A stretch of DNA of 64,000 bases from Clostridiales bacterium (GTDB lineage Bacteria; Bacillota; Clostridia; Saccharofermentanales; Saccharofermentanaceae): the NCBI GenBank assembly GCA_017511005.1, contig JAFWLP010000037.1, forward strand, positions 21,869 through 85,868, written 5' to 3'. A program made the position numbers and the translations under genes. The notes below the pieces were generated by a model that did not search any database, was not told where the DNA came from, and saw only the letters and a program-made list of their open reading frames with translations. Shown piece after piece: positions 7,442-28,517 of the stretch. Numbering within the stretch: position 1 is the first letter of the stretch; each line of letters starts with the position of its first letter.

Positions 7442-8167
7442 TCAGACACAGATGTAATCTTTTATCCTGTTGAACTTCGAGTCACCGATTCCCGAGACGT
7501 TCTTTATGTCGTCTATTGTCTCAAACGGATTATCCTTCCTGTAATCCACTATTGATCTGGCAGTCACTTCACCAATACCGGGAAGGCTTGTAAGCTCCTC
7601 CATGGAAGCGGTGTTTATGTTGACCATAAGTACTGTCCCGCCTCCGGCATCACCGGATGAGCCCTGCCCGCTTCCCCAGACATAGACACCGTCAGGACGG
7701 ATGATATCCCCGCCGGTAAACCCGCCGGATACCTCATCCCGGGACGGGATATAGATGGACATATTGCAGGTGATCCTGTATACGAGATTGATGTTGTTGA
7801 CCGAAGCGGCATCCGTAAGACCTCCGGCATCTTCGATAATGTCATTAAGCAGAACGCCTTTGGGGGCATTATAGATCCCCGGATGATTAACCTCGCCGCA
7901 GATATAGACACTGATAAGCTCAACTGTTCCTGCGGTTGCTGTGACGGTTGTCTCAGACGCCACGGAAGAAACCGGTTGAGGCTCCGGGCTGACCGTTGAC
8001 GCCTGTTCCGTTACCGAAGCGGTCTTCCCGCTCTTGAACGCCTGAACGGACAGAGTACCGTTACCCTTGAAAACAAGCTTATATACGGCACTCAGGATGA
8101 TGATAAGAACGAATGCCAAAGGATATATCAGACTCTTTATCTTTCCCGAAAAGCTCTTCTTCAACAT
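7442..8167 (-). CDS. comEA: ComEA-like competence DNA receptor
   Basis: A 241-residue membrane-anchored DNA-binding protein. One hydrophobic helix sits at residues 12-30, followed by a Ser/Thr/Val-rich linker, an SLBB domain (VYICGEVNHPGIY…GVLLNDIIEDAGG) and a C-terminal double helix-hairpin-helix (NINTASMEELTSLPGIGEVTARSIVDYR). ComEA binds incoming double-stranded DNA outside the membrane during transformation. comEC is not in the window. No Shine-Dalgarno is visible; the predicted -10 hexamer at 8174-8179 puts transcription start at or near the ATG, so the mRNA may be leaderless. The promoter matches the one before the Tad cluster at 24.6 kb. Confidence 0.88.
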   Translation of the reverse strand: MLKKSFSGKIKSLIYPLAFVLIIILSAVYKLVFKGNGTLSVQAFKSGKTASVTEQASTVSPEPQPVSSVASETTVTATAGTVELISVYICGEVNHPGIYNAPKGVLLNDIIEDAGGLTDAASVNNINLVYRITCNMSIYIPSRDEVSGGFTGGDIIRPDGVYVWGSGQGSSGDAGGGTVLMVNINTASMEELTSLPGIGEVTARSIVDYRKDNPFETIDDIKNVSGIGDSKFNRIKDYICV

Positions 8168-8173
8168 AGAGCA

Positions 8174-8227
8174 AGCATATCACCGCTCCATGTCCGTTTT
8201 TCCCGACAAAATACGACAAAACCGACA
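8174..8227 (-). promoter_or_regulatory. comEA promoter with three phased TGTCG boxes
   Basis: Reading the minus strand, hexamers TGTCGG (8227-8222), TGTCGT (8218-8213) and TGTCGG (8208-8203) are spaced 9 and 10 nt apart. Exactly 23 nt later comes TATGCT (8179-8174) as a -10 element; the -35 position (GAAAAA) is not consensus, which suggests an activator. The distal box overlaps the rsfS terminator hairpin. Same layout as 24575-24629. Confidence 0.6.
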
Positions 8228-8246
8228 GGGATGCTCCCTGCCGGTT
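8209..8246 (-). terminator. Terminator after rsfS
   Basis: Inverted repeat AAACCG-CAGGGA / TCCCTG-CGGTTT (8218-8246), 31 nt beyond the rsfS stop, followed on the minus strand by a short T-rich stretch. Confidence 0.6.
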
Positions 8247-8276
8247 TCGGACATTACTTTTAAATAATTATACGGA

Positions 8277-8621
8277 TTACTGTTCGCCTTCTCTGCGCTT
8301 GGTCTCCCAGAACTTCTCGATATTGTAATTCTCGCGCTCTTCCCTGCCCATGACATGAACCACAACATCCTTGTAGTCGAGCAGGATCCACTTGTCTCCG
8401 GAACGGCCTTCTATGTGATCGGGAACGATATCGTAATCCTTCTTAAGCACATATTCGACCTCATCAGCCAGCGACTTGATCTGTGTCGTTGAATTACCGC
8501 TCGCCAGCACAAAATAATCAGCAAGAACTGTCTTTCCGGTGAGATCGATCGTCTCAATGTCGATACCCTTCTTGGAATCCAGTATCTCGGTTATCTTAGC
8601 GGCTAATTCTTTTGTGTCCAT
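8277..8621 (-). CDS. rsfS: Ribosome silencing factor RsfS
   Basis: A 114-residue RsfS/Iojap protein. RsfS binds L14 on the 50S subunit and blocks joining to the 30S subunit when nutrients are short. The family pattern is complete: DIETIDLTGKTVLADYFVLASG, then DSxS-type NSTTQIKSLADEV, and DKWILLDYKDVVVHVM. ATG 8621 is used rather than 8627 because TAAGGAG overlaps the latter and lies 6 nt before the former. It follows the nadD-yqeK fusion, the usual gene order in Firmicutes. Confidence 0.95.
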   Translation of the reverse strand: MDTKELAAKITEILDSKKGIDIETIDLTGKTVLADYFVLASGNSTTQIKSLADEVEYVLKKDYDIVPDHIEGRSGDKWILLDYKDVVVHVMGREERENYNIEKFWETKRREGEQ

Positions 8622-8706
8622 AAACATCTCCTTAGATTTCTTTGTTGGTTAAAGTATATCACACTAAATATGTACAGATTTTCAGCATATCGAAAACATT
8701 GTCTGA

Positions 8707-9927
8707 CTAAAGACCGAGTTCTTTCATCATCTGAGCAGTCACGGGATGGATATCCCTGCCCTGCGAAACGAACTTGTCCTTAATGGCCAATGCAGTCATG
8801 CGGACGGCGCTGTCGAGGTCTTTCTCAGCCGCTTCCCTGATTGGCGCGAGATCCATGTAGTTTCTCGCGGGCTCGATCTTATCGGCAAGATAGACTATCT
8901 TCTCCAGAACGGATATTCCTCCCCTTCCGGTCGTGTGGTAACAGATCGCGTCAAGGATCTCCCTGTCATCAATGCCGAGTTCCTCTTTTGCAAACGTCGC
9001 TCCGGCAGATGAATGAATGATCTTCTTCTCCGTGAACAGATCACCCGAATATCTTTTCGCCATTTCGAGCTGATGTTCGACAGGAAGCTCCTTTGCGCAG
9101 TCGTGCAGCGCGCCCGCTATCAGAGCCTTATCCATGTCCGCGCCGTAAAGCCCCGCAAGATGTGCGGACAGATATCCCACATTGAGCGTGTGAAGAAGTC
9201 TCTTCTCCCCGAGATAACGGTACATCCAAACAGAGCACTCAAAAAACTGTTTCCTGGCTTCTTCTGAAATGCCCGTAAGCTTTGTATTCTCAGAATAAAG
9301 AGCGTGTCTTTTTATGAACCTGACGGCCGGTTCCGGAACCTCGGAGAAGTCCCCGCTGTCAGTGATCCCCGAAGAAGAGCATTCAACACCCTTAAGTCTG
9401 AATATCTCCACATTGCCTCCGAGATTCTTCTTAATAGAGGCTTTTGCCTTCTCGACATCTGTGCCGTCACCGGGTCTTACGGCCGCAAGGAGCGTTACGT
9501 AGTTCAGTATCTCTCCGGGCTTGTACCATGTCTCGAAGGTACCGAGCGTGTCAGAACCCATGATCCAGAAGAATTCATGATGCTCTTCAGCTTTCTTCCG
9601 CTTAATGCCATTCGCGGTAAGGAAGTTCCTTATGTACCCGTCAGAAGTAAGCTTCGCGAGAACGACGGCCGTGTAGCTGACGCCTTCGATATCATATTCG
9701 ATGTCGCTCACATAACAGTTCTTTAGTTCCAGACCTTCCACGGTCTCCTTCATCATGTACAGACGGTACGGAGGCGGCAGTTTGTTGGCATAGAGCTTAA
9801 AGGAATTTCTTACGGACGGGATTATTATCACGCAATCGATAAATCCGCTTTTCAAAGCGGATCTTATCATTGCTATATGACCGTTATGGACCGGATCGAA
9901 TGATCCTCCGTAGATACCGATCCTCAT
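8707..9927 (-). CDS. nadD: NadD-YqeK fusion (NaMN adenylyltransferase + HD hydrolase)
   Basis: A 406-residue fusion. Residues 1-205 are nicotinate-mononucleotide adenylyltransferase: GIYGGSFDPVHNGH is the nucleotide-binding T/HxGH motif, with IMGSDTL and an SSSGITDS stretch like the ISSTxIR signature but altered. Residues 220-406 are YqeK: HTLNV…HDCAKELP gives the HD metal site, and YLADKIEP is typical. NadD makes deamido-NAD in NAD synthesis (nadE lies at 61.6 kb); YqeK homologues split diadenosine tetraphosphate. In many Firmicutes these are two adjacent genes. Only a few nt separate it from purD and no clear Shine-Dalgarno is seen, so translation is probably coupled. Confidence 0.92.
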   Translation of the reverse strand: MRIGIYGGSFDPVHNGHIAMIRSALKSGFIDCVIIIPSVRNSFKLYANKLPPPYRLYMMKETVEGLELKNCYVSDIEYDIEGVSYTAVVLAKLTSDGYIRNFLTANGIKRKKAEEHHEFFWIMGSDTLGTFETWYKPGEILNYVTLLAAVRPGDGTDVEKAKASIKKNLGGNVEIFRLKGVECSSSGITDSGDFSEVPEPAVRFIKRHALYSENTKLTGISEEARKQFFECSVWMYRYLGEKRLLHTLNVGYLSAHLAGLYGADMDKALIAGALHDCAKELPVEHQLEMAKRYSGDLFTEKKIIHSSAGATFAKEELGIDDREILDAICYHTTGRGGISVLEKIVYLADKIEPARNYMDLAPIREAAEKDLDSAVRMTALAIKDKFVSQGRDIHPVTAQMMKELGL

Positions 9928-9930
9928 CTA

Positions 9931-11184
9931 TCAGCCGAGTGTCCTTCCGATATCGTGACGGAAATGCATGTCCTTGAAGGAGATCTTCGCAACGCCTTCG
10001 TAAGCGCCGTCAATAGCCTCGTCAAGTGTATCCGCCTCATCATATACACAGAGAACACGTCCGCCGCTGGTAACAAGCTTGCCATCCTTAAGGGCCGTGC
10101 CTGCCTGGAATACGAGTTTGCCGCAGGTATCGATGCCTGTGATCTCATAACCCTTTGCATAGCTCTGCGGATATCCGCCTGAAGCCATGACGACTACGCA
10201 GGAACACTTATCCTTCCACTTGAAGTCGATCTTATCGAGCGTTCCATCGATGCAGGCATCAACGATATCAAGGAGACTGTTCTCGAGGAGAGGCAAAACC
10301 GCCTGTGCCTCGGGGTCACCGAAACGTGCATTGTACTCCACTACCTTTGGTCCTTCAGGCGTAAGCATAAGACCGAAGTAGATAACACCCTTGAAAGGTC
10401 TTCCCTCTTTCTTGAGAGCTTCAACTGTAGGTGTGATGATCTCGTTCTGAATGCGTGCCTTAAGTTCATCAGTCATGTCAGCACCGGGTGTAACAGCACC
10501 CATGCCGCCGGTGTTGAGTCCTTCGTCGTGATCGTATGCTCTCTTATGGTCTCTTGAAGAAACCATCGGAATGCATGTGTTGCCGTCAGAGAAAGCAAGA
10601 ACGGTAAGTTCCGGACCGGTCATGCATTCTTCGATAACGATGGTGGAGCCAGCATTGCCGAACTTCTTGTCTTCCATCATATCCTTAACGGCCTGCCTGG
10701 CTTCATCAAGGTTCTGCGCGATGATAACGCCCTTACCCAGTGCGAGGCCGTCACACGTTATAACGATAGGCATGGGCTGAGTCTCAAGGTAATCCAAAGC
10801 AGCCTTTTCATCTTCGAAGATCTCATACTTTGCGGTAGGGATCGAATACTTCTTCATGAGCTGCTTGGAAAAAGCCTTTGAACCTTCGATGATGGCAGCA
10901 TTTGCCTTGGGGCCGAAGCTCCTGAGGCCTGCTTCTTCCATCCTGTCGACCATACCCATGGCGAGCGGATCGTCGGGAGCAACGAAGACGAGATCAAACT
11001 GCTCTTTCTTCGCAAACTCGACCATGCCGTCGAGATCTGTAGCCTTAATATCAACGCATGTAGCTATGGAAGCAATACCGCCGTTACCCGGAGCGCAGTA
11101 AAGATCCGTTACTCTGGGATCCTGCTTGAGTTTCCAGCAGATAACATGCTCTCTTCCGCCGCCGCCTACTACAAGTACCTTCAT
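9931..11184 (-). CDS. purD: Phosphoribosylamine-glycine ligase PurD
   Basis: A 417-residue GAR synthetase, the ATP-dependent second step of purine synthesis joining phosphoribosylamine to glycine. MKVLVVGGGGREHVICWKL is the family's N-terminal motif; the ATP-grasp core shows GPKANAAIIEGSKAFSKQLM, VVEYNARFGDPEAQAVLP and SGGYP. Length is normal. GGAGG lies 8 nt before the ATG. No other pur gene is nearby; it sits between hom and nadD-yqeK, so this appears to be a mixed housekeeping operon rather than a purine operon. Confidence 0.95.
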   Translation of the reverse strand: MKVLVVGGGGREHVICWKLKQDPRVTDLYCAPGNGGIASIATCVDIKATDLDGMVEFAKKEQFDLVFVAPDDPLAMGMVDRMEEAGLRSFGPKANAAIIEGSKAFSKQLMKKYSIPTAKYEIFEDEKAALDYLETQPMPIVITCDGLALGKGVIIAQNLDEARQAVKDMMEDKKFGNAGSTIVIEECMTGPELTVLAFSDGNTCIPMVSSRDHKRAYDHDEGLNTGGMGAVTPGADMTDELKARIQNEIITPTVEALKKEGRPFKGVIYFGLMLTPEGPKVVEYNARFGDPEAQAVLPLLENSLLDIVDACIDGTLDKIDFKWKDKCSCVVVMASGGYPQSYAKGYEITGIDTCGKLVFQAGTALKDGKLVTSGGRVLCVYDEADTLDEAIDGAYEGVAKISFKDMHFRHDIGRTLG

Positions 11185-11211
11185 TAAGTGTTCCTCCGGT
11201 TTGTTTTTCGA

Positions 11212-12399
11212 TTATTTCAGATAGTGCATCCAGGACTTGGCTTCCGAAGCGGAAACAAGCGCATCGATGTCCTTGTGCTTAATGCCCTTAACAAGGATAG
11301 CCTCATCGGAAAGCACTTCACACTCATATCCGTCTGCAGCGCCAAGCACCTTGGCGGGAACATCAGCTCTTACAACGATATCAGCCTTGATCTCATCGTA
11401 AGGAGTGATTGCCGCGCTTTCTTCCGTCCAGGCTCTTGCTTCGGGAGGATTGCCCAAAGCAGCCTCAAGGATATCGCCGCAGACTGCGGATGCCGTAGGA
11501 AGCGTACCTGCTCCCTGTCCGTAGAACATTGCCTGACCCAGACTGTTGCCGTCTACCATGACCGCATTGAATACGCCGCCGACATTGTAGAGAAGATTGC
11601 TCTTATCGACCAAAGCAGGCGCGACATAAACGATCGGCAGTTCATCACCTGCCTCATAAAGAGCGATCAGCTTGATGTCGCAGCCGATGGATGCGGCAAA
11701 TGCCATATCGTCCGTCGTTACGGAAGATATGCCCTCAGCGGAGATCTTGTCGGGCGCAATGTAAGCACCGTCATTTGCGATCGTCGAAAGGATCGAGATC
11801 TTTCTCTGCGCATCAATGCCGTTGATGTCGGCGGAAGGATCAGCTTCGGCAAACCCGTTGTCCTGTGCCTGCTTCAAAGCCGTATCGAAATCGATGCCCT
11901 CATCCTTCATCTGTGAAAGAATGTAATTCGTCGTTCCGTTGACGATACCTGCGATCCTTGTGATCTTGTTTGCGGCAAGGCACTTATAGAGCGGTCTGAT
12001 GATCGGGATACCGCCGCCTACCGCAGCCTCGAAAAGATAGCAGCAGTTGTTTTCAGCCGCGATCCTGAGAAGCTCGGGACCATGAGTTGAAACGAGTTCT
12101 TTATTCGATGTTACGACGCTGATACCGAGAGAAAGAGCGCGCTTTGTGTATTCGTAAGCGATCCTTGCCCCGCCGATAGTCTCAACGGCTATAAGAATAT
12201 CGCTGTCAAAGACTTCGTCCGCATTGTGGGTAACAAGACCAGCGAATCTGCTTTCGGGGAAATCCCTGATATCGAGAATGTACTTGAGATTGATCTCTTC
12301 GCCGACGCGTTTGGTGATGAGATCCCTGTTTATATCCAATGTCTCGGCCACGCCTGAACCGACAGTACCGAAACCCATGATCGCAACATTGATTGCCAT
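11212..12399 (-). CDS. hom: Homoserine dehydrogenase
   Basis: A 395-residue NAD(P)H-dependent enzyme that reduces aspartate semialdehyde to homoserine for threonine and methionine. Visible: N-terminal nucleotide motif MGFGTVGSGVAETL, catalytic-region VGGGIPIIRPL and GIVNGTTNYILSQM, and GQGAGTLPTASAV. Family members with a full C-terminal ACT domain have about 430 residues; here only about 70 residues follow the core and the ACT fold seems truncated. The next gene upstream encodes a free ACT protein, which may supply feedback control in trans. AAGGA lies before the ATG. Confidence 0.94.
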   Translation of the reverse strand: MAINVAIMGFGTVGSGVAETLDINRDLITKRVGEEINLKYILDIRDFPESRFAGLVTHNADEVFDSDILIAVETIGGARIAYEYTKRALSLGISVVTSNKELVSTHGPELLRIAAENNCCYLFEAAVGGGIPIIRPLYKCLAANKITRIAGIVNGTTNYILSQMKDEGIDFDTALKQAQDNGFAEADPSADINGIDAQRKISILSTIANDGAYIAPDKISAEGISSVTTDDMAFAASIGCDIKLIALYEAGDELPIVYVAPALVDKSNLLYNVGGVFNAVMVDGNSLGQAMFYGQGAGTLPTASAVCGDILEAALGNPPEARAWTEESAAITPYDEIKADIVVRADVPAKVLGAADGYECEVLSDEAILVKGIKHKDIDALVSASEAKSWMHYLK

Positions 12400-12420
12400 T
12401 TTACTTTTCCTTACCTTTCA

Positions 12421-12867
12421 TTATTCCCTGCTCAGGATCATGCATTTGCGCACGCCCGCGAGCTTGGAGATATCATTGATTATGTCGTCAACGGTTCCGT
12501 ACATTGACACTGTCTCTATTGAGATCGAGATGTCGGCGAGGCCGTTGATCGGGATATTCTGATTGATCGTCAGAATATTTGCACGCGATTCCGCGATAGT
12601 TCTTATTATCTCAGACAGGATCCCCTGGAAATTCTCTACGGAGAGCAGCAGCGTAACCTTCTTGCCGCTGGCAGCCTCATAGAAAGGCAGCACGGAATCC
12701 TTGTACTTGTAATAAGCACTTCTCGAAAGGCCTGTCTTCCTTACAGCTTCATTTACCGAAGTGGATTCTCCGGTATTAAGCCGCTGCTTTACCTCCATAA
12801 CCTTAATGAAGACTTCAGGCAAAACTCTTTTATCGACTAGGAAATATTCGGGGTTATCCTGATGCAT
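12421..12867 (-). CDS. ACT domain protein, UPF0735 (PheB-like)
   Basis: A 148-residue protein of the UPF0735 family. The first 65 residues form a small helix-turn-helix-like part (VNEAVRKTGLSRSAYYKYKDSVLPF) and the remainder an ACT domain (VTLLLSVENFQGILSEIIRTIAESRANILTINQ), the fold that binds amino acids to regulate enzymes. In Firmicutes it commonly sits next to hom, as here (22 nt gap). Probable role: amino-acid sensing for the aspartate pathway, either by contacting the ACT-poor Hom or by binding DNA; neither is shown by sequence. It is the first gene after a strong promoter with a palindrome. Confidence 0.88.
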   Translation of the reverse strand: MHQDNPEYFLVDKRVLPEVFIKVMEVKQRLNTGESTSVNEAVRKTGLSRSAYYKYKDSVLPFYEAASGKKVTLLLSVENFQGILSEIIRTIAESRANILTINQNIPINGLADISISIETVSMYGTVDDIINDISKLAGVRKCMILSRE

Positions 12868-12940
12868 AAGTCAAGGCCTTTCTGTTTATTTTCGCGCTTT
12901 CACTATACCTCCTGTGACGGACATTTGTGCGCGCCTGACA

Positions 12941-12969
12941 ATATTATCACGATTAAATCGTGTTTTCAA
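12941..12969 (-). promoter_or_regulatory. Promoter with palindromic operator, ACT-hom-purD operon
   Basis: On the minus strand TTGAAA (12969-12964), 17 nt, TAATAT (12946-12941). The spacer contains a perfect 7+1+7 palindrome, CACGATTTAATCGTG (12948-12962), placed where a dimeric repressor would block RNA polymerase. Confidence 0.75.
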
Positions 12970-13017
12970 TAAATAAGAAAAAGCATTAAAAGAACATGAC
13001 TTTTGCCGGTACAGAAA

Positions 13018-13623
13018 TTACAGTTCCGCCTTAAGCTTGTCAGCCATTGCTCTCAGCGCTTTGCCTCTGTGGCTTATGGAGTTCTTCTGTTCCTTTGTCA
13101 TCTGGGCGGTCGTCATGCCGAATTCCGGGACATAGAAGATAGGATCGTAACCAAAGCCGCCGTCACCCGCGGGCATCTCGTGAAGAACACCGCAGACCTC
13201 TCCCCTCACGGTAAAATCTGTCCCGTCAGGTCTTACGACAGCTATGCTGCATACAAACTTTGCCGTGCGCTTTTCCTCAGGCACATACCTGAGCATCTCA
13301 AAGATCTTGGCGAACTTCTCCGGATATGTGGAATCTTCACCGCAGAATCTTGCGGAATATATGCCCGGAGCACCGTCAAGAGCATCTATGCAAAGACCGG
13401 AATCATCAGCCATTACGTAACAGTCCTGAGCAAGCGCATGAACCGCCCTTGCCTTTATCAGGGCGTTCTCTTCAAATGTCTTGCCGTCCTCAACGATATC
13501 CGGATCAAGGCCTTCCTCATGCATCGACACAGCCTTAAATGGCGTGTCCTTCAATATCTCGCCGATCTCCCTGACCTTGTCTTTGTTGGATGTCGCGATA
13601 ATGAGCTTCAAACCATTTGTCAT
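13018..13623 (-). CDS. rdgB: XTP/dITP diphosphatase RdgB
   Basis: A 201-residue Ham1/RdgB nucleotide-cleansing enzyme that hydrolyses ITP, dITP and XTP to monophosphates and keeps them out of nucleic acids. Key motifs: IIATSNKDKVREI near the N-terminus, MADDSGLCIDAL (catalytic Asp), GAPGIYSARF, GDGGFGYDPIFYVP and SHRGKALRAM at the C-terminus. The ATG at 13623 overlaps the upstream stop as ATGA and has GGAGG 5 nt upstream; a longer reading from 13635 would start inside that Shine-Dalgarno region. Confidence 0.95.
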   Translation of the reverse strand: MTNGLKLIIATSNKDKVREIGEILKDTPFKAVSMHEEGLDPDIVEDGKTFEENALIKARAVHALAQDCYVMADDSGLCIDALDGAPGIYSARFCGEDSTYPEKFAKIFEMLRYVPEEKRTAKFVCSIAVVRPDGTDFTVRGEVCGVLHEMPAGDGGFGYDPIFYVPEFGMTTAQMTKEQKNSISHRGKALRAMADKLKAEL

Positions 13624-15050
13624 ATAAGCCTCCATGCTTTCGGATACATATTTTTGGCAGTATTGCCGTTGATCTTTGCAAACCCCAGCGGATAATCTCC
13701 TATGCCTGCGAGGATCAGTCCGGACGCTTTCAGTCCGTCACCGGGATCAACGGATACCGTCTCTCCCCTGAGGTATTTCAGGAGCCTGCCGTCATCTCCT
13801 GACAGTGCAAGATAGGAATCATCACGTATGTCATCCCTGTCAAGAGCAAGCGCTATGCTGTTGGACGGCTCGAAAACATTCTTCCCCGACTTCAAAGGCT
13901 TGACGTCACCGACATAAAGACCTGTCTTTACAACCTTGAGTCCCCTGAAAAGAGCCTCATCGAACGTCATCTTAAATAGACCTGTTCCATGCGAGATGAA
14001 ACGGCCGGAAATAAGCTTCTCCCTGCCTTTGTCCGAGAGCACTTCACCAAGCACGTCAAGAGCGGCTTCAGCATTCTTATCCCTGCGTTTTTCCGTTCCT
14101 TTTAACAGGAGTTCATCAGCCGATCTGAGATTCTTCTCTTCACCCTTTACTAGATGAACGCAGAAGTGTCCGTCCCCTTTTGAAATGTGCGGCCAAATCC
14201 TCATGGAACCCGGGAGAACGGAGCCTTCTCCGGCATGGGTAACACCGGCGATCTCCGGGTGTGCTTTTACATGGTATTCAGGGTGACGGGATATGAAAGA
14301 CGCTATCTGTCCCTCATCCTCATCAGAACAGAAAGTACATGTCGAATAGACTATCGAACCGCCGTCTTTAAGGCACTTGTCCGCAGCTTCCAGGATCGAT
14401 CTCTGCAGCGGGACACAGACTTTGGGACCGTAATTCATGTAGCTCTTTACGGCACCGCTGTCTCTTCTGAACATGCCTTCACCCGAACAAGGGGCATCGA
14501 TCAGGATTTTATCGAAGAACCCCGGGAGCCTGCCTGCAATATTCTCGGGCGTCTCGTTGAGTATCACGAGTCCGCTTATGCCGGAACGTTCGATATTGCG
14601 GAGAAGAGCTTTCGAGCGCTCGAAACTGATCTCATTTGCCACAAGAATGCCTTCACCGTGCATGTCCTCGCCAAGCCTGCAGGCCTTTCCGCCTGGAGCT
14701 GCGCAGAGATCAAGGACAGTCTCGCCCGGCCTTGCGGCCATGACCTGCGCGGGCAGCATCGCGGAAGGTTCCTGCGGATAATAAACACCCGCGTGATACA
14801 GGGCTTCCCTGCCGCTTGCCTCATTCTTCGTATAGTAACCGCCGGAACACCAAGATACGGGGTCAGCTTCTTCGCCAAGTTCTTTGAGCAGACGGAGTTC
14901 CTCCTCCGTGCTTCCGATCTTTGACCGAGAGAACCTTATGCCTTTAAGTGGTTCTTTATCAAAACTCTCATAGAATCCTTCACACGGCACGTCCTTCTGA
15001 CGCTGGAAGAAATCATTCATCTCATTGATAAAGTCTTCCGGAAGATTCAT
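13620..15050 (-). CDS. RsmF/RsmB-type rRNA (cytosine-5) methyltransferase
   Basis: A 476-residue NOL1/NOP2/Sun-family enzyme that uses SAM to methylate a cytosine in rRNA. The SAM motif AAPGGKACRLGEDM, the DAPCSGEGMFRRD motif and STCTF carry the two catalytic cysteines. A linker and a C-terminal PUA-like region (PLGFAKINGNTAKNMYPKAWR) match RsmF-type proteins. Start 15050 has GAGGT 4 nt upstream; the upstream extension is inside pepF. The stop overlaps rdgB by 4 nt (ATGA), indicating translational coupling. The exact target base cannot be assigned. Confidence 0.9.
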   Translation of the reverse strand: MNLPEDFINEMNDFFQRQKDVPCEGFYESFDKEPLKGIRFSRSKIGSTEEELRLLKELGEEADPVSWCSGGYYTKNEASGREALYHAGVYYPQEPSAMLPAQVMAARPGETVLDLCAAPGGKACRLGEDMHGEGILVANEISFERSKALLRNIERSGISGLVILNETPENIAGRLPGFFDKILIDAPCSGEGMFRRDSGAVKSYMNYGPKVCVPLQRSILEAADKCLKDGGSIVYSTCTFCSDEDEGQIASFISRHPEYHVKAHPEIAGVTHAGEGSVLPGSMRIWPHISKGDGHFCVHLVKGEEKNLRSADELLLKGTEKRRDKNAEAALDVLGEVLSDKGREKLISGRFISHGTGLFKMTFDEALFRGLKVVKTGLYVGDVKPLKSGKNVFEPSNSIALALDRDDIRDDSYLALSGDDGRLLKYLRGETVSVDPGDGLKASGLILAGIGDYPLGFAKINGNTAKNMYPKAWRLI

Positions 15051-15057
15051 CTGTACC

Positions 15058-16770: not shown

Positions 16771-16787
16771 ATCCATGCCTTTCAGGT

Positions 16788-18533
16788 TTACATCTTTTCG
16801 ACGACACCAATACCGAGCATGTCAAGACCTGACTTAAGACAGTCAGCAACTGCCTCACAGAGCGCCAGACGCGCATCCCTGATTTCCTCGCTGTCGGCAT
16901 TCAGAATCCTCGAATTGTTGTAGAAACGGTTGAAATTCCTTGCGATAAGAGCTATCTGACGCGATATCATGAACGGCTCATAGCTCTCGGCTGCCTTAAC
17001 GACGGCATCCTTGAAATCAACAAGGCTTCTGATGACCGCATATTCATCTTCGGCCGTAAGCTTATCCGCAGAACCGATATCTCCGGCAAAGCCCTGGTCC
17101 GCAGCCTTCCTGAGGATCGACCTGATCCTCGCGTAAGTGTAGATGAGGTAAGGAGCGGTATCGCCTTCGAAATCGAGCATGTCATCCCAGTCAAAGAAGA
17201 TGTCCTTCTCCCTGCCGGCCTTGAGATACGTGTAAGTAACTGCTCCGAGACCGACGGTCTCAGATACTCTTGCGATCTCCTCATCTGTCATGTCTCCGCC
17301 CCTGAGCTCGCTGTTCTTCCTGATGATCTCGGCTGTCTTCTCGGTAGCCTTGTCAAGGAACTCATCGAGCTTGATTATGTTGCCTGCGCGGGTTGAGAAA
17401 GCAGTGTTGTCCTTGAACTTCAGAAGACCAAATCCGACATGGACGCAGTCATCGGCAAAGTCATAGCCGGCCTTTTTGAGAACGGCGAAAACCTGTCTGA
17501 AGTGAAGCTGCTGCGGAAGTCCCACAACATAGATATTCTTATAGAAATTGAACTCTTCGTGTCTGTAGAGAACGGCTGCGAGATCTCTCGAAGCATAGAT
17601 AGTGGTTCCGTCGCTCTTGACGACCAGACACGGCGGAAGTCCCTCATCTTCAAGCTTGACAACCTTGGCGCCTTCGCTCTCTTCAAGAAGGCCTTTATCC
17701 TCAAGCATCTTAACGACTGCGGGGATCCTGGGGGAATAGAACGACTCACCGTTATAGTTGTCAAACTTTATGCCCATTCTCTTATAGGTCTTCTCGAAAA
17801 CCTCAAGGCTTAAGTCCCTGAACCTCTTCCAGAGAGCAACCTCTTCTTCCTCGCCCTCTTCGAGTTTCCTGAAATTATCCCTTGCGTCATCTTCCAGTTC
17901 CTTCTCGCGCTCAGGGCTTACCTTGCACTCGTCATGGAACTTGACGTAGATCCTCGTGAGTTCGTCGATCGGATTATCCTGCATGGCCTGCTCGTCACCC
18001 CAAAGCCTGTAGGCAGTGATGAGCTTGCCGAACTGCGTGCCGTAATCGCCCAGATGATTGAACCTGATAACGTTATATCCGAGTCTTGAATAGATGTTCG
18101 AGAGTGAATTGCCGAGGATGGTCGTGAAAGCGTGTCCTACATGGAAGGGCTTCGCGATATTGGGAGAGGAGAACTCTACTATTACGTTCTTTCCCTCACC
18201 GATATTCCTGTTGCCGTACTGATCGCCCTCGGAGATTATCTCCGAGATGACCGTCCTTGCGAGTACGCCTTTATCAATCCTGAAATTGACATACGGACCT
18301 GCCGTATCCACGGTGACTGCCCCGTCAAAGCCCTTTACGAGTTCCGGCGAGTCCTTCAGCCCGGCGGCTATCACGGGCGGAGCCTTGTGAAGCGTCTTGG
18401 CGAGGACAAAACAAGGGAAAGCATAATCACCGAGTTCGAGCTTGGGCGGTATCTCGATGAGACCTGCCACCTGTTCTTTATCAAGTCCTGTGCAGCTGCT
18501 CAGATTGGCAGCGATCAAATCTTTGTAATCCAT
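16788..18533 (-). CDS. argS: Arginyl-tRNA synthetase
   Basis: A 581-residue class I synthetase charging tRNA-Arg. The class I HIGH motif appears as PFHVGHAFTT, an N-terminal additional domain precedes it, and the KMSKS-equivalent is the variant TAFSTRAGNI, as is usual for ArgS enzymes. The DALR anticodon-binding domain ends the protein (NFNRFYNNSRIL). ATG 18533 has AAGGAG 9 nt upstream; a longer frame from 18605 would overlap the promoter region. A 16-nt palindrome lies 26 nt before the start. No T-box leader is seen. Confidence 0.96.
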   Translation of the reverse strand: MDYKDLIAANLSSCTGLDKEQVAGLIEIPPKLELGDYAFPCFVLAKTLHKAPPVIAAGLKDSPELVKGFDGAVTVDTAGPYVNFRIDKGVLARTVISEIISEGDQYGNRNIGEGKNVIVEFSSPNIAKPFHVGHAFTTILGNSLSNIYSRLGYNVIRFNHLGDYGTQFGKLITAYRLWGDEQAMQDNPIDELTRIYVKFHDECKVSPEREKELEDDARDNFRKLEEGEEEEVALWKRFRDLSLEVFEKTYKRMGIKFDNYNGESFYSPRIPAVVKMLEDKGLLEESEGAKVVKLEDEGLPPCLVVKSDGTTIYASRDLAAVLYRHEEFNFYKNIYVVGLPQQLHFRQVFAVLKKAGYDFADDCVHVGFGLLKFKDNTAFSTRAGNIIKLDEFLDKATEKTAEIIRKNSELRGGDMTDEEIARVSETVGLGAVTYTYLKAGREKDIFFDWDDMLDFEGDTAPYLIYTYARIRSILRKAADQGFAGDIGSADKLTAEDEYAVIRSLVDFKDAVVKAAESYEPFMISRQIALIARNFNRFYNNSRILNADSEEIRDARLALCEAVADCLKSGLDMLGIGVVEKM

Positions 18534-18558
18534 AGCTTTTTTCTCCTTATTACAAGTG

Positions 18559-18574
18559 AATATGTTAACATATT
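18559..18574. promoter_or_regulatory. 16-nt perfect palindrome upstream of argS
   Basis: AATATGTTAACATATT, directly next to TTGGCCAA, in the divergent region between argS and the MraY-like gene. Possible operator; no regulator is assigned. Confidence 0.4.
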
Positions 18575-18690
18575 TGGCCAATACTGACGAGCAAATCGGG
18601 TCCATTTATTGAACGAATTAATAATTTTTTTCTATATACCGTTAAGGTATAATGCTTAGTGCGTTAATCCTTATGAGCGAGGGATTTTTG

Positions 18691-19722
18691 ATGATATTTG
18701 TCCTTAAAATGGCTTTGGGCGGCATTGCTGCCTTTGTCATTACATATATATTTCTCAAATTACTTCCGGGCGAGATGGTCTTATTGGGTCATGACCGCGG
18801 CCGTAAATTTGCACAGGGCGCGGAAGTAAACATCGGAAAACCTACCGGAGTGGGTTTTTATTTCGTGCTCGTATTTCTTGCCGTATCAGGTGTTCTCTGC
18901 TTTCTGATAAGTCCCGTAACGACAGGCAAAGGCATCTTCGAGAGCGGAAATACCATGTCAGGACTGGGCTTCGGTCTTCTCGCCGTTCTGGCTGAGATGG
19001 TGACCGGCTGGCTCGATGACCGGTCCAAAAAACCCTGGAACGAATACATTAAGGGCGCACTGGATTTTGTGGTGTCACTTGCCGGAGCATTCATCTGCGT
19101 CCATTTCTTCGGCACACGTGTATACATTGCCATTACGGGTTCTTATCTCGACATCAACCCCGTACTGTACTATATTCTCGCAGTGATCCTTTTCGTGGTG
19201 TCGATCAATGCCACAAACGCGACGGACGGCATAGACGGGCTGTCCGGCTCTCTCTCGATCGTTGCGGTCATTACGACATTCGTGATGGGAACGCTCGCCG
19301 GATCGGTGTTCGATGACAATCCGAAGTTCCTTGTCGCCGCCTTTGTTCCCGCTCTTGCCGCTTACCTGATCTTCAATTTCAATCCTTCGAAAATGATGAT
19401 GGGCGATGCAGGTTCAAGATCCATGGGATTTTTCATAGCTTTCTTCCTGATCTTATGCAGGATCCCTTTCCTGTATTTTATCGTCGGTCTCCCTTTCCTC
19501 TGTGACGGAGGAATATCGATACTGAAGATAACGGTCGGAAGGCTCACCAAGAGGAAGATAATCCTTTTCAGGAGCATCACCACGCCTCTTCATGACGAAC
19601 TCCGCAAGAACAGGAAATTCAGCGTTAAGAAGGTATGGGTCACACTCGTTCTTGCAGCTTCTGCAGTCGATCTGCTCTATGTGATCATCTCCATAATCGT
19701 AAAAGCCGTTCTGAACGGCTGA
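18691..19722 (+). CDS. MraY/WecA-like phosphoglycosyl transferase
   Basis: A 343-residue polytopic protein that should transfer a phospho-sugar from a UDP-sugar to undecaprenyl phosphate. The family motifs are present: WLDDRSKKP (Asp-Asp pair), NATNATDGIDGL and NPSKMMMGDAGSRSMG. The C-terminal loop reads TTPLHDELRKN, shorter than the HHH loop of classical MraY. It is alone, with no mur, fts or polysaccharide genes, so it may be a second MraY or serve a wall polymer. ATG 18691 (GAGG 8 nt upstream) is preferred to 18652. Confidence 0.85.
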   Translation: MIFVLKMALGGIAAFVITYIFLKLLPGEMVLLGHDRGRKFAQGAEVNIGKPTGVGFYFVLVFLAVSGVLCFLISPVTTGKGIFESGNTMSGLGFGLLAVLAEMVTGWLDDRSKKPWNEYIKGALDFVVSLAGAFICVHFFGTRVYIAITGSYLDINPVLYYILAVILFVVSINATNATDGIDGLSGSLSIVAVITTFVMGTLAGSVFDDNPKFLVAAFVPALAAYLIFNFNPSKMMMGDAGSRSMGFFIAFFLILCRIPFLYFIVGLPFLCDGGISILKITVGRLTKRKIILFRSITTPLHDELRKNRKFSVKKVWVTLVLAASAVDLLYVIISIIVKAVLNG

Positions 19723-19757
19723 CATTCCCGGAACGTCAAAATCTTTATCCGGAACAA

Positions 19758-20567
19758 TCAGAAAGGCTCTGCATTCTTAACGGCCCTGTTTCCCGCAAAA
19801 GCGGCACATAAGACCTTTGAGGCGCCGGCCCTGTACAGAGCCTCCGCAGCTTCATGAAGCGTGGCTCCCGTTGTCGCGACATCATCAACGGCAAGGACCG
19901 TCATTCCGGTTACATCCCATTGATCACTTACTTCAAAAGCACCTTTGACATTCGCTGAACGTTCATTATTATCTCTTATTTCCGATTGACGCTTAGTCTC
20001 CCTCGTCCTGATCAGCAGATCACCGGCAAACGGCAGACCGTTTATCCGGGCAACGGGATACGCAATCTCGGAAGCCTGATTGAATCCGCGTTCCTCCAAA
20101 CGACCGGGTGACAACGGTACCGGAACGACCATATCGGCACTGATCCCCTCATAGCAAAGACATGATCCCAAAAGACAGCCAAACAGCCTCGCGAGTTCGA
20201 TCTTCTTCCCGAACTTGATCTTCGGAACCGCATGTTCAACTATGCCCCTGTACGCAAAGGGCATGTACAGGGCAAGTCCGGGACATGTGTCGTTCCCGGA
20301 AGGATTGGAAAGACATAAAGACCATCTTCTGTCCCATTCAAGGATGTTTAATGATGAAAGGCATTTCCCGCAGACATGCAGTTCAGGGGCTTTACCGAAC
20401 AGTTCATTATACAAACTGCCATAATCCGCAAATCTGTCTTCCGTATCGGAGACCCTGCCGCATATGGCGCATCTGTACGGAAGGATAAGATCCACCGCAC
20501 CTCTGAAAGCCTCTCTGATCCCGCTGCGGATTGAATATCCGGTGTTATTAACGGCTGTTGTTGCCAT
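19758..20567 (-). CDS. comF: ComF family phosphoribosyltransferase-like protein
   Basis: A 269-residue ComF protein. The N-terminal part contains a four-cysteine zinc finger (CAIC … HVCGKCLSSL); the second half is a type I phosphoribosyltransferase fold with VLAVDDVATTGATLHEA as the PRPP loop. In naturally transformable bacteria ComF helps single-stranded DNA entry and processing. Its ATG overlaps the recD2 stop (TGATG), with GGAGG 8 nt upstream, so both are one operon. Together with ComEA and the Tad cluster this suggests DNA-uptake capacity, though comEC is not seen in the window. Confidence 0.9.
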   Translation of the reverse strand: MATTAVNNTGYSIRSGIREAFRGAVDLILPYRCAICGRVSDTEDRFADYGSLYNELFGKAPELHVCGKCLSSLNILEWDRRWSLCLSNPSGNDTCPGLALYMPFAYRGIVEHAVPKIKFGKKIELARLFGCLLGSCLCYEGISADMVVPVPLSPGRLEERGFNQASEIAYPVARINGLPFAGDLLIRTRETKRQSEIRDNNERSANVKGAFEVSDQWDVTGMTVLAVDDVATTGATLHEAAEALYRAGASKVLCAAFAGNRAVKNAEPF

Positions 20568-22915
20568 CACTTTAACCTCCGGTGATCCACCGTCTTAAGA
20601 AGATCTCTTAAGCACGTTTCCCTGGTATCGCCTTTTGGCCCTCTCAGGAACTTTTCAAGCGTTCCTCCGCACTCGACGATGGTGACATTCATCTTTCCCC
20701 TCGTAACGGCCGTATATAGCAGACTGCGCTTGTAGAGCAGCGCATTCATCTTTCCCAGCGCTATTATTACCCTGTCGAATTCACATCCCTGTGATTTATG
20801 GACCGTGACCGCATAGGCCAGATCGATGTTTTCCAGAAGTTTTCCTTTATATTCGGCAGTCTTGCCTTCGTCAAAGGTGATGGTAACGCTTCCCTTCACT
20901 GTATCTATGTCACTTATCACACCGAGTTCACCGTTGAATATGCCCTGCATAACTTCACCGGTCACGGGATCTATCCATTCCGTGGAGTAATCGTTCTTGT
21001 TCTGCATCACCTTATCACCGACGTGAAGCACTAGGCTCTGTCCTCTTTTTATGACTTTCAGATCGTCTTTTTTCTCCAGGGACTGGATCATCTTGTTGAG
21101 CTGAACGGTACCCAGCGCCACATTCTCGTTCTTTGTAGGGGTAAGACAGATGATATCTTCATCTTTATGCTCAATGACCAGTCTCGCTATCGTATCCTGA
21201 GCCTCTTCTTCACTGCCGCAGCTGACGATCTCAAAGTCAACGCCGGTGCTTACAGGTGAGTTACCCTCAAGAATGAGACCCGCATTGGAGGCAATGGTGC
21301 CGTCATCCGCCTGTCTGTGAAGAGCGTCGAGTCTTACCGCAGGAATCGATCTGCACGACAGAAGATCGCTTAACACATTGCCGCATCCGACAGAAGGCAG
21401 CTGGTCCGGATCCCCGACAAGTATTATCGAGGTTCCCTTATCAGTAGCATCGAGAAGATGTCTGAACAGCATTGTGTCGACCATGGACATCTCATCTATG
21501 ACTATGACACGGCATATTATCGGATTGTTCTTCCCGTGCACAAACAGTAGGCTGTCATACTGTCCTGCCCTGTCGTCAGGAAGGAGTTCCTCATCATCAG
21601 TGTTTATGGTCCTTCTTACTCCCAAAAGCCTGTGAATGGTGGATGCTTCACTTCCGCATGCCTCAGACAGCTTCTTTGCAGCTCTTCCCGTCGGAGCGGC
21701 AAAGACACAGCTTATCCTGTTTCTTCTGAAGTATTCTCCCAGTATTCCCATTATCGTCGTCTTGCCGGTTCCGGGGCCTCCGGTGATCACACTTATCGGG
21801 CTGTACATGCAAAGATAAAGGGCATCGAGCTGGGATCTGTCGGGAATGATCCCGAGATCCGAAGCGACCTCTTTCAATATCCTGTCACTCTCATCTCTCG
21901 CGGGAGGAACGGTCTTTGTCCCTAGCATCTGGTTGATCCGTCTCTCGATCGCGAGTTCGGACGAGAAATAACTCATTGTGGCAAACCGGGCTTCGGGATC
22001 CTCAACATCGCAGACGGCACACTTTCCCGAATCGTATTTATAAACGGCGATCTTCTTGTCTTCAATTGCCAGTGCGGCTCCGGCCCTGAACACCTCCGAG
22101 AACTGTTCGGAAGTCAGCTTCGATTCATGCGTATTCACGTATTCCAAAGCTCTCCGCCTGACATCCTGCGGCATGAGCGCCGTGGATTTTGTCTCCTCAT
22201 GCAGATACATGCATGCCTGATAGAGCGCGGCCGCTATCCTCTCGGATGCAACGGGTGACACTCCTTCTCCGAGCGCTATCCTGTCGAGCAGCTCAAACCC
22301 TGCTATCCCGTGTCCCATGAGAGCAAACGGTCTCTTCCTGATATCCTCACAGTCGAGTCTGTCAAGATTCTTAAGGAGCTTTATCTGAGCCTGCGAAAAA
22401 CCCATCAGCCTGGCTTCAAGCCCCTGACAGAAAAACTCATATCCCTCCGTGATCTGGTCACAAACCGCCATTGCTCTTGAAGATGACAGACCGCTTACTT
22501 CGGACGAAGCAAGTTCAGGCGTCTCCGTCAACACTTTGAGGATATCCCTGCCGAATCTGTCAGCCAATGCTTCAGCCGTGGTCTTTCCCAGGCCGCTTAT
22601 GTTGTCTGCAAGGAAAGATGCAATGAGTAATGTATCTCCCGCATCTTCGTCAACCCGGATCTTCTTTAACGTTACCTGCGGCCTGTTATTCCACTCGGTA
22701 ACCTTGCCGGAGATGATGTACGTACCGCCTTCGACAACATCGACCTTGGATCTTCCGGCCACGGTAAATCTTCCGCTGCAAAGGAAAGACACGAAATTAT
22801 TAGCCTTTCTCGGGCAGAACACCTTGATGCAGGTAACCTTTACATCTTCGATCTCACTGCCGATATCCGACAGCGACAATGAGAACGGCTTATTGTCTTT
22901 GGAGTCTTTTTTCAT
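20567..22915 (-). CDS. recD2: RecD2-type SF1B DNA helicase
   Basis: A 782-residue 5'-3' helicase of the RecD2/TraA type, the form found without RecBC. An N-terminal OB-like domain is followed by helix-hairpin-helix stretches (NISGLGKTTAEALADRFG), the Walker A motif GGPGTGKTTIMGILGEY, the DEAG-like VIDEMSMVD, and the C-terminal TVHKSQGCEFDRVII and YTAVTRGK motifs. It acts in recombination, repair and replication-fork restart. Its overlap with comF is a common arrangement in Clostridia and ties it to DNA processing. Confidence 0.93.
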   Translation of the reverse strand: MKKDSKDNKPFSLSLSDIGSEIEDVKVTCIKVFCPRKANNFVSFLCSGRFTVAGRSKVDVVEGGTYIISGKVTEWNNRPQVTLKKIRVDEDAGDTLLIASFLADNISGLGKTTAEALADRFGRDILKVLTETPELASSEVSGLSSSRAMAVCDQITEGYEFFCQGLEARLMGFSQAQIKLLKNLDRLDCEDIRKRPFALMGHGIAGFELLDRIALGEGVSPVASERIAAALYQACMYLHEETKSTALMPQDVRRRALEYVNTHESKLTSEQFSEVFRAGAALAIEDKKIAVYKYDSGKCAVCDVEDPEARFATMSYFSSELAIERRINQMLGTKTVPPARDESDRILKEVASDLGIIPDRSQLDALYLCMYSPISVITGGPGTGKTTIMGILGEYFRRNRISCVFAAPTGRAAKKLSEACGSEASTIHRLLGVRRTINTDDEELLPDDRAGQYDSLLFVHGKNNPIICRVIVIDEMSMVDTMLFRHLLDATDKGTSIILVGDPDQLPSVGCGNVLSDLLSCRSIPAVRLDALHRQADDGTIASNAGLILEGNSPVSTGVDFEIVSCGSEEEAQDTIARLVIEHKDEDIICLTPTKNENVALGTVQLNKMIQSLEKKDDLKVIKRGQSLVLHVGDKVMQNKNDYSTEWIDPVTGEVMQGIFNGELGVISDIDTVKGSVTITFDEGKTAEYKGKLLENIDLAYAVTVHKSQGCEFDRVIIALGKMNALLYKRSLLYTAVTRGKMNVTIVECGGTLEKFLRGPKGDTRETCLRDLLKTVDHRRLK

Positions 22916-22979
22916 GATCTGCTCTTCTTTTTCGCGGGCTTTTCAAGATGCTAACAAACAAATAATGACAAAACAATAA

Positions 22980-23009
22980 GCCCGGCCAAAGTTGAGACTC
23001 TGACCGGGC
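22980..23009 (-). terminator. Terminator after metK
   Basis: GCCCGG … CCGGGC inverted repeat 33 nt past the metK stop, followed on the minus strand by TTATTGTTTTG. Confidence 0.65.
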
Positions 23010-23041
23010 ATTTGAGACTTTTTTGTCCTTATAACGGGATA

Positions 23042-24232
23042 TCAGATCCCTGCAAGCTTCTTTATCTCTTCAGCTTTATCCGTTCTCTCCCAAGGAAGAT
23101 CTATGTCAGTTCTTCCGAAATGACCGTAGCTTGCGGTCTTCGAGTAGATAGGTCTTCTGAGATCGAGATCCCTTATGATCGCTGCAGGTCTCAAGTCGAA
23201 CACCTTGTTTACGATCTCCGTGATCTCCGGTTCACCGATCTTACCTGTCCCGAACGTATCGACCATGACCGATACGGGCTTTGCAACACCGATAGCATAA
23301 GCAACCTGGACCTCGCACTCCGTGGCAAGACCTGCAGCTACGATGTTCTTGGCAATATAGCGCATCATGTAGCATGCCGAACGGTCAACCTTCGTAGGAT
23401 CCTTACCTGAAAAGCATCCGCCGCCGTGACGCGCGAAACCGCCGTATGTATCAACGATTATCTTTCTTCCCGTAAGGCCGGAATCGCCCTGAGGGCCGCC
23501 TACAACGAATCTTCCCGTCGGATTAATGTATATTCTCGTATTCTCATCGATCAGATCAGCAGGAATGACAGGCTTGATGACGTTTTCCTTTATGTATTCC
23601 TCAAGGAATTCAAGAGTTACGTCGGCACTGTGCTGTGTGGAGATAACGACAGCATCGATCCTCTTGACCTTGTCGTTCTCATACTCGACGGTAACCTGAG
23701 ACTTTCCGTCAGGCCTTAAGAAATCCGCACCGTTCTTTCTTACTTCAGAAAGACGGATCGTAAGCTTATGCGCAAGTGAAATCGGCATAGGCATAAGCTC
23801 CGGGGTATCATCGTTCGCATAACCGAACATCATGCCCTGGTCACCCGCACCTGTATCAAGCTCCTTCTCACCGCCGTGACGTGCTTCGTAAGACTCGTTA
23901 ACACCCATTGCGATATCCGGAGACTGCTCGTCAATAGAGGTAAGGACAGCACACGAATTGCTGTCAAAACCCATGTCGCTGGAGTTGTAACCGATCTCCT
24001 TTATCTTGTTCCTGACGATCGAAGGGATATCCACATAAGCAGATGTCGTGATCTCGCCCATAACGAGCACCATTCCCGTTGTGGTACATGTCTCACATGC
24101 GACACGCGCTGTCTTATCCTGCTCCAGAATAGCATCGAGCACCGCGTCAGAGATCTGGTCACAGATCTTGTCGGGATGTCCCTCCGTAACGGATTCAGAA
24201 GTGAACAGCCAGTTTCCTTTTTTATTTCTCAT
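23042..24232 (-). CDS. metK: S-adenosylmethionine synthetase
   Basis: A 396-residue enzyme making SAM from methionine and ATP. Motifs: [32 protein letters not shown] and [17 protein letters not shown] (the P-loop-like segment, with Cys in place of the usual Ala). Length is normal. The start at 24232, with AAAGGA upstream, is chosen because any longer reading would run through the SAM riboswitch leader. Feedback control by SAM is expected from that leader. Confidence 0.97.
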
Positions 24233-24261
24233 TGTCTTTCCTTTCCGTTCCATGCTTTGAT

Positions 24262-24293
24262 AAAAGAAAAACCTTCCCCCGAAAGGAGAAGGC
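24262..24293 (-). terminator. Riboswitch-controlled terminator of metK leader
   Basis: Minus-strand hairpin CCTTCTCC/GGGGGAAGG followed by TTTTTCTTTT, between the SAM aptamer and the metK ribosome binding site. This is the expected expression platform: SAM binding should favour this hairpin and switch metK off. Confidence 0.85.
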
Positions 24294-24310
24294 CGACGCT
24301 TTATATAACG

Positions 24311-24412
24311 ATCCTCATCTTTCAGGTTTCCCTGCCGGAATTGGCACCGCTGCTTTCCGCGGTTGCCGGACTCTGATAACGGGCCGGTCCCTCGAGTCAC
24401 TCTTGATAAGCA
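24311..24412 (-). promoter_or_regulatory. SAM-I (S-box) riboswitch
   Basis: The minus strand carries the conserved S-box blocks in order: CTTATCAAGAGTGACTCGAG (P1/P2 start with kink-turn), GGGACCGGCCCG, CCGGCAACC, GGTGCCAATTCC and GAAAGATGAGG closing P1. Position before metK and the following terminator fit the class. It acts in cis by binding SAM. Confidence 0.93.
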
Positions 24413-24436
24413 AAGAACTTAAATTGTAGTGGCTTG

Positions 24437-24465
24437 ATTGTACTTATACCGGCTTTCTTTGTCAA
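24437..24465 (-). promoter_or_regulatory. metK promoter
   Basis: Minus strand TTGACA (24465-24460), 17 nt, TACAAT (24442-24437), placing the transcript start about 20 nt before the riboswitch. Confidence 0.8.
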
Positions 24466-24574
24466 TTGTCTCACGGGGTTTATTTTCATCACGGAAATCT
24501 TTCCACTCCATTCACCTGTTAAAGATAATAATTAATTATTACGCTCCCGGGAACGGTCTTACCCTCCGTTTGCC

Positions 24575-24629
24575 TGTCGGTTTTTGTCGGATTTTGTCGC
24601 TTTAATCAGGATGCTCACGGCCTTACAAT
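24575..24629 (+). promoter_or_regulatory. Tad cluster promoter with three phased TGTCG boxes
   Basis: TGTCGG (24575-24580), TGTCGG (24585-24590) and TGTCGC (24595-24600) repeat every 10 nt. Exactly 23 nt later is TACAAT (24624-24629); the -35 position is TTTAAT, far from consensus. The layout equals that before comEA, including TGTCGNATTTTGTCG in the two proximal boxes. Confidence 0.65.
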
Positions 24630-28464: not shown

Positions 28465-28517
28465 CCTGAATTTCCATCAATTGGTTTTTGAGTTATCTGA
28501 ATAAAGGAACGATTACG

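Follow-up and report, generated by a model that had tools for sequence, protein, structure and literature searches.

TGTCG arrays ahead of competence and Tad pilus genes in Saccharofermentans-type rumen Clostridia, with a short Spo0A_C protein as candidate regulator

How might a gene for DNA uptake and a separate pilus operon be switched on together? The question is raised by a stretch of 64,000 nucleotides from a Clostridiales bacterium (assembly GCA_017511005.1, contig JAFWLP010000037.1, positions 21,869 to 85,868; hereafter the window), in which comEA and a Tad pilus cluster are each preceded by direct repeats with the core TGTCG. A preliminary description of the window had proposed that these repeats allow one regulator to control DNA uptake and pilus assembly. 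This proposal is now well supported, by computation only, through the specificity of the target set, its recurrence throughout the genus and the spacing to the -10 element. It is very likely that the competence/Tad regulon is real and new, and that it follows a known kind of promoter logic. The reading that we prefer, a competence regulon under one class II activator that is a short protein with a Spo0A_C domain, we regard as probable.

Both promoters in the window have the general form first claimed for them. The three TGTCG boxes ahead of comEA follow each other at steps of 9 and 10 nt and those ahead of the Tad operon at steps of 10 and 10 nt (coordinates in Table 1), with proximal pairs that read TGTCGTATTTTGTCG and TGTCGGATTTTGTCG, respectively. 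The comEA promoter on the minus strand is TGTCGG-TTTTGTCGTA-TTTTGTCG, 24 nt, TATGCT, 6 nt, ATG; the Tad promoter on the plus strand is TGTCGGTTTT-TGTCGGATTT-TGTCG, 24 nt, TACAAT, with the ATG at 24663. The gap of 23 nt given earlier is right if counted from the hexamer TGTCGN, and is 24 nt in both promoters if counted from TGTCG. Direct reading shows that both lack a -35 element (GAAAAA for comEA and TTTAAT for Tad are found at 17-nt spacing), and a consensus promoter scan of the comEA side found no promoter at this position. The pattern TGTCGNNTTTTGTCG occurs three times in the window, always at these two promoters (the Tad triple is counted twice), and a chance origin was rejected, with no occurrence in 100 dinucleotide shuffles. 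A loose motif with up to three mismatches gave 18 matches against 20.4 by chance, so that only the near-exact form carries signal. The distal comEA box lies in the right arm of the hairpin that terminates rsfS and is thus weak evidence alone; a third box that is a genuine 10-nt repeat is frequent in relatives.

The motif recurs in related genomes. In 35 genomes of the same genus (probably Saccharofermentans-type rumen Clostridia) TGTCGNNTTTTGTCG gave 223 matches, with overlaps counted separately, against six for the reversed control, and 30 of these genomes have at least one match. The 24 genomes from outside the genus gave 15 matches against five for the control, in seven of the 24. In the GTDB contig collection the exact triple pattern is present in at least 118 stretches; among the 80 matches listed, 60 are of the Clostridia type, many of them Saccharofermentans or rumen Clostridia, and the other 20 range from Selenomonas to other phyla, where the pattern is probably repeat DNA.

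The sites are not placed at random, and they recur upstream of comEA and Tad genes throughout the genus. Recurrent gene families lie downstream of the site in 53 of the 60 fetched regions and at 38 of the 43 exact sites in the seven genomes for which every exact site was taken (G002, G005, G007, G011, G013, G023 and G032, with seven out of seven in G007; sites of G025, G026 and G030 were fetched in part only); the families were defined from the genes at motif sites, and these counts show recurrence and not unbiased enrichment. The 43 exact sites comprise 26 ahead of comEA, comEC, comM, recA or tad-like genes, 11 ahead of a family that we call A, one ahead of a family H and five without a family. 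Family searches supplied the names ComEA, ComEC, ComM (Mg-chelatase type), DprA, RecA and TadA/TadBC. The earlier suggestion to look for the motif at other competence genes was borne out: comEC and comM carry arrays, and dprA directly follows comM in all four loci readable in that orientation, in the order comM, dprA, topA (L353, L355, L357 and L361). Family A is a protein of about 262 residues, encoded as many as four times per genome in the regions fetched; it carries an E...PDF...EHxG pattern reminiscent of a PD-(D/E)XK nuclease. A Pfam search of family A (two members), family H and the proteins of a second tad-like cluster gave no significant match, and the latter look TadE/G-like by inspection.

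Beyond these families, an array in G030 (L101) lies ahead of a HigB-like/HTH pair resembling a toxin-antitoxin module, and a cluster of four arrays (L035, L187, L207 and L223) lies ahead of genes that by inspection are like Rpn/PD-(D/E)XK transposases. Ruminococcus flavefaciens YL228 has a triple array at 24-nt spacing ahead of a double-HHH ComEA-like gene. A site ahead of comEA in another family of the order (L369 in G057) was rejected as an example of the same architecture, because what looks like a terminator separates its boxes from the gene.

The distance to the -10 element was counted at 117 sites assigned to recurrent families, out of 195 distinct sites (70 without a family and eight in tiny clusters only, many of them from other phyla, make up the rest). 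A -10 hexamer with at least five of six matches lies 23–24 nt past the last TGTCG at 42 of the 117 sites and 34 nt past it at 17, with at most four at any one other distance. If the best-scoring hexamer of any quality is taken, 71 sites fall at 23–24 nt, 25 at 33–35 nt and 21 elsewhere. A degenerate box (at least three of five bases) is found one step downstream in 22 of the 25 sites of the longer group against 32 of the 71 of the shorter, so the phase is mostly kept; the spacing noticed in the window is thus conserved across the genus. The 49 sites at 24-nt spacing have the profile TTGTCGGTTT TTGTCGGTTT TTGTCG N24 TAYAAT, in which site selection accounts for the last two boxes and for parts of the -10, but not for the first box. 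The two window promoters combine a box array at or near the -35 position, no usable -35 and a sigma-A -10. The class II geometry claimed in the preliminary description thus stands as regards the spacing and the missing -35 of the window promoters, and is weak for recA, the promoters of which mostly lack a -10.

At 33 of 47 sites ahead of family A, comEA and comEC (21 of 28, eight of 12 and four of seven, respectively) an ATG follows exactly 6 nt past the -10, as a rule without a Shine-Dalgarno sequence, and the mRNAs of these genes look leaderless. With a -10 at -12 to -7, transcription would begin at the A of the ATG and the last TGTCG would span -41 to -37; the placement of the ATG in turn supports the predicted -10 elements. 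Most of the Tad1, Tad2, comM and H genes have a leader of 20–60 nt that contains a Shine-Dalgarno sequence. Apparently leaderless cases in the source genome include comEA in the window (8167-8179) and a family-A gene on another contig (L005, 1541-1555, with the frame at 1553-2341). Several sites (L030, L050, L074, L075, L077, L158 and others) have an inverted, AACCGACAAA-like copy between the last box and the -10, possibly a repressing or looping site.

The source genome of the window is 76% complete. A scan of it with a looser pattern and up to one mismatch gave 17 matches against 19 for the controls; single loose matches therefore carry no meaning. Despite this background the sites that are exact or have several boxes are conspicuous. 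Beyond the window, contig C49 has a triple array ahead of a 274-residue frame (L005), a family-A site, and contig C25 has boxes ahead of the second tad-like cluster (L012) and a four-box array ahead of comEC (PF03772; L013). A degenerate array (L364) precedes comM, next to dprA. Two further candidates were discarded, one within a 225-residue frame (L003, C5:54048; taken as background) and one in which the boxes face each other between unrelated genes (L016, on C44).

A sequence-only promoter model was also built from 30 of 33 chosen promoters with 24-nt spacing (L031, L032 and L219 were left out), none of them from the source genome. In that genome the two window sites rank first (3.7e-13 and 3.4e-10), followed by the C49 family-A site (4e-4), the second tad-like site on C25 (0.036) and one weak match (0.06); the model missed the comEC array. 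In a search of 23 other genomes for arrays at com genes, 11 genomes have a model match at E ≤ 0.05, mostly a weak one. Independence cannot be claimed for the matches in G005, G007, G011, G020 and G032, some of which may belong to the training set or be closely related to its members, and the R. flavefaciens site is itself one of the training sequences. The rejected L369 is the best model match in G057.

We propose that one activator binds these arrays and thereby switches on a DNA-uptake regulon in the Saccharofermentans-type rumen Clostridia. Its monomers would lie head to tail along one face of the DNA, each on its own 10-bp TTTTGTCGGT unit of the array, and the final unit would stop just upstream of the missing -35, such that the bound protein would replace the -35 contact of the sigma-A polymerase in the class II manner. 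The polymerase would then use the -10 placed 23–24 nt downstream. The targets would be comEA, comEC, comM-dprA, recA, the two tad-like clusters and the nuclease-like family, and the activator would most likely be a short Spo0A-type protein, of 175 residues in the source genome.

This choice of protein is suggested by the boxes. The preliminary description knew of no described site of this form in Clostridia, but there is a precedent: the core and the period of the arrays resemble the Spo0A 0A box, for which a core of TGTCGAA with contacts at G2, C4 and G5 is described in PMC3485338. The resemblance points to a candidate, and a single PF08769 protein was found in the source genome. It has a vestigial receiver-like N-terminus of about half length, followed by Spo0A_C, and scores 27.8–28.4 bits against a gathering cut-off of 25. 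It is not a canonical Spo0A: the receiver is shortened and the TIGR02875 score is 19.6 bits against a cut-off of 200. A PDB search with this protein gave nothing meaningful. With the Pfam model at E ≤ 0.01, one Spo0A_C copy per genome was found in 52 of 59 genomes (43 over the cut-off), and a profile added five more genus genomes to give 33 of 35, with one weak second match in G012. The recognition helix is QxERDVRYAI (EQSERDVRYAI here) compared with SRVERAIRHAI in canonical Spo0A, with the E, R and R retained. Both the protein and the motif are missing from G022, as is the usual neighbour gene. A perfect triple array lies 54 nt upstream of the gene for a 127-residue Spo0A_C protein in a Clostridiales metagenome-assembled genome (L188 in G060), where no other model match reaches E ≤ 0.05, and in another family of the order (G037) a two-box site and a further TGTCG precede the Spo0A_C gene. 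AGTCTCA/AGTCCCA-type repeats occur upstream of the Spo0A_C gene (L126, L131, L133, L134, L261, L263 and L266), one of them in a terminator-like hairpin; they are possibly its own control site.

Several observations weigh against this protein, or against the uniformity of the proposed promoter. TGTCG is not followed by AA in these boxes, and in the two proximal ones it is itself partly fixed by site selection. A fitting -10 is present at only two of eight recA sites and four of seven comEC sites. No TGTCG tandem array was found at the Spo0A_C genes of the genus, and TGTCG/CGACA at 51 Spo0A_C genes (50 against 25.5 expected from simple shuffles) forms no clear pattern. The arrays ahead of the Spo0A_C genes at L188 and in G037 lack a -10 at 24 nt and so could be repressing sites; the G037 site is weak (0.035), with two others scoring better (the best, at 8.6e-7, lies between rsmE and xth-radA), and G060 also has a canonical Spo0A that might bind the L188 array. 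Protein and motif do not always travel together: no Spo0A_C protein was detected in G006, a genome that is 97% complete and has 18 motif matches (the gene that usually adjoins its coding sequence is also missing, so a gap is possible), the protein is present in four of the five genus genomes that lack the motif (G003, G010, G031 and G034), all 24 non-genus genomes of the Pfam scan have it yet the arrays are nearly limited to the genus, and among five non-genus records with triple arrays two lack it (G061, a Selenomonas, and G062) and three have it. Our confidence is lowered by the missing 24-nt spacing at L188 and G037 and by the two array-bearing records without the protein; we nevertheless hold the short Spo0A_C protein to be a good candidate and probably the regulator.

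The same observations on G006, on genus Spo0A_C genes without arrays and on the non-genus genomes favour an activator of another family, perhaps a RemA-type protein or a different response regulator, that reads TGTCG repeats and drives the same regulon by the same class II mechanism; RemA is reported to bind repetitive DNA (PMC8481266). Such a protein is disfavoured by the resemblance of the arrays to 0A boxes in core, T run and 10-bp tandem and by the boxes ahead of Spo0A_C genes at L188 and in G037, and no known regulator family is found among the recurrent target clusters (the 70 sites without a family were not scanned, and one of these, L101, precedes an HTH protein). An unrelated activator is a serious alternative, if a somewhat doubtful one. 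That a canonical, phosphorylated Spo0A drives the promoters, as in sporulating Bacilli, would account for a box core equal to that of the 0A box and for the single strong arrays in G060, with its canonical Spo0A, and in G059, with three strong Spo0A_C matches (receivers unchecked). It is very improbable, since the source genome, and each genus genome with a match, has a single strong Spo0A_C protein of about 170–205 residues from the conserved start and without a full receiver; the source genome is incomplete, but relatives that are 97–100% complete are alike, apart from G006 with none.

Doubt could also fall on the arrays themselves or on what they serve. The distal comEA box within a terminator stem, the several arrays that follow terminator-like stretches and the many repeat-like triple matches in other phyla would suit by-products of terminators or T-rich DNA, or a repeat family, with no regulatory role; the constant distance to the -10, the recurrence of one functional gene set and the excess over the control matches leave this hardly credible, and the fold of the Tad array is not unusually stable (z-score 0.18). 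The programme might instead be centred on pili, adhesion or recombination, with the com genes riding along in cells that are not transformable. The presence of two tad-like clusters and recA in the set fits this, and no transformation of the genus was found in the literature matches listed. Genes for PilB/PilT-type ATPases, labelled by inspection, are present in nine of nine genomes examined, side by side on contig C7 of the source genome and in relatives (L315-L323), with no promoter-model match within 5 kb of them in the nine genomes; Tad, which is co-regulated, thus seems to share these genomes with a separate type IV pilus. The presence of comEA, comEC, comM-dprA and recA, a set for DNA import and processing, and the requirement for a Tad pilus in the transformation of Micrococcus luteus (PMC4322843) make a programme without transformation unlikely. 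In its fullest form the Spo0A_C reading would have natural transformation in Saccharofermentans governed by a receiver-less Spo0A descendant as its dedicated master switch, which reads 0A-like arrays and drives a two-island Tad uptake pilus, leaderless ComEA and ComEC, ComM-DprA, RecA and a new nuclease-like family; we put this forward tentatively, as plausible but short of probable.

The features of both promoters and their genes are given in Table 1. The label CpaE-like that the first Tad gene had received is backed by no match.

Table 1. Promoter elements and neighbouring genes of comEA and the Tad operon, in window coordinates
Feature	Position	Strand	Family match or basis of label
Proximal TGTCG box, comEA promoter (about -37 to -41)	8204..8208	-	
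Middle TGTCG box, comEA promoter	8214..8218	-	
Distal TGTCG box, comEA promoter; part of right arm of rsfS terminator	8223..8227	-	
-10 hexamer TATGCT, 24 nt past proximal box and 6 nt before comEA ATG; mRNA predicted to be leaderless	8174..8179	-	
comEA, SLBB and HHH DNA receptor, 241 aa; ATG at 8167	7442..8167	-	HHH_3, SLBB and TIGR00426 over cut-off; TIGR01259 below
Intrinsic terminator of upstream rsfS, overlapping distal box	8217..8249	-	
rsfS, ribosomal silencing factor, upstream neighbour of comEA	8277..8627	-	
Distal TGTCG box, Tad promoter	24575..24579	+	
Middle TGTCG box, Tad promoter	24585..24589	+	
Proximal TGTCG box, Tad promoter (-41 to -37)	24595..24599	+	
-10 hexamer TACAAT, Tad promoter	24624..24629	+	
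First Tad operon gene, 302 aa; 'CpaE-like' by position only	24663..25571	+	No Pfam or NCBIfam match
TadA/CpaF-type secretion ATPase	25568..26764	+	T2SSE over cut-off; best NCBIfam match TIGR03819, below cut-off
TadB/TadC-type platform protein	26637..28274	+	T2SSF
Flp-pilin-like ORF, 57 aa; short N-terminus, KKGMGTVE, hydrophobic stretch	28291..28464	+	Inspection of sequence
FHA-domain protein, 442 aa, last gene before ATP synthase genes	28488..29816	+	

Many bacteria that have never been shown to be transformable encode com genes (PMC6668835). The arrays offer a concrete, testable switch, with a defined site, a list of targets and one candidate protein. If the proposal is true, these Clostridia would gain their first defined competence regulon, and DNA uptake would be linked directly to the Spo0A family with no need of a phosphorylation domain; it would also support Tad pili as competence pili in a second Gram-positive group and provide a handle for genetics in rumen Clostridia. 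Among the open-licence literature matches listed, none describes this regulon or a receiver-less Spo0A that controls competence.

Parts of the arrangement are familiar from Spo0A. Tandem 0A boxes 10 bp apart are known from abrB, and spoIIG has a long spacer with a displaced -35. Spo0A-activated promoters of Bacillus subtilis (spoIIG and spoIIE) are described as sigma-A dependent with boxes upstream (PMC12090719), and a displaced -35 with upstream boxes is what the promoters here have in common with them. Like 0A boxes, the arrays keep the TGTCG core with G2, C4 and G5, the flanking T run and the 10-bp tandem; they differ in forming regular arrays of two to five boxes, in reading TGTCGG(T/A) and not TGTCGAA, in having com, tad and recA genes as targets, and in the lack of a normal receiver in the candidate protein. 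That protein is like other members of PF08769 in scoring over the gathering cut-off and in its conserved ER..R recognition helix, and unlike them in an N-terminus of about half a receiver and a score far below the TIGR02875 cut-off.

The pilus has precedents elsewhere. Tad-dependent DNA uptake is reported in Liberibacter (PMC8513845), and the competence pilus of M. luteus draws on two tad islands (PMC4322843; a Tad competence pilus in this species is also noted in PMC6668835). The two tad-like clusters here likewise have a common promoter type; their joint role is suggested by this promoter sharing only, and the second cluster has no Pfam match. Late competence regulons are governed by ComK in Bacillus, by ComX/SigX in streptococci and by SigH in Staphylococcus and Lactobacillus. 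As in those regulons, one switch would serve comEA, comEC, dprA and recA-type genes together with a pilus, but with another DNA site and another regulator, and with a Tad pilus in place of ComG. A common site does stand ahead of comEA, comEC, comM-dprA and recA in the relatives, and in the source genome ahead of comEA and comEC and, as a degenerate array, of comM.

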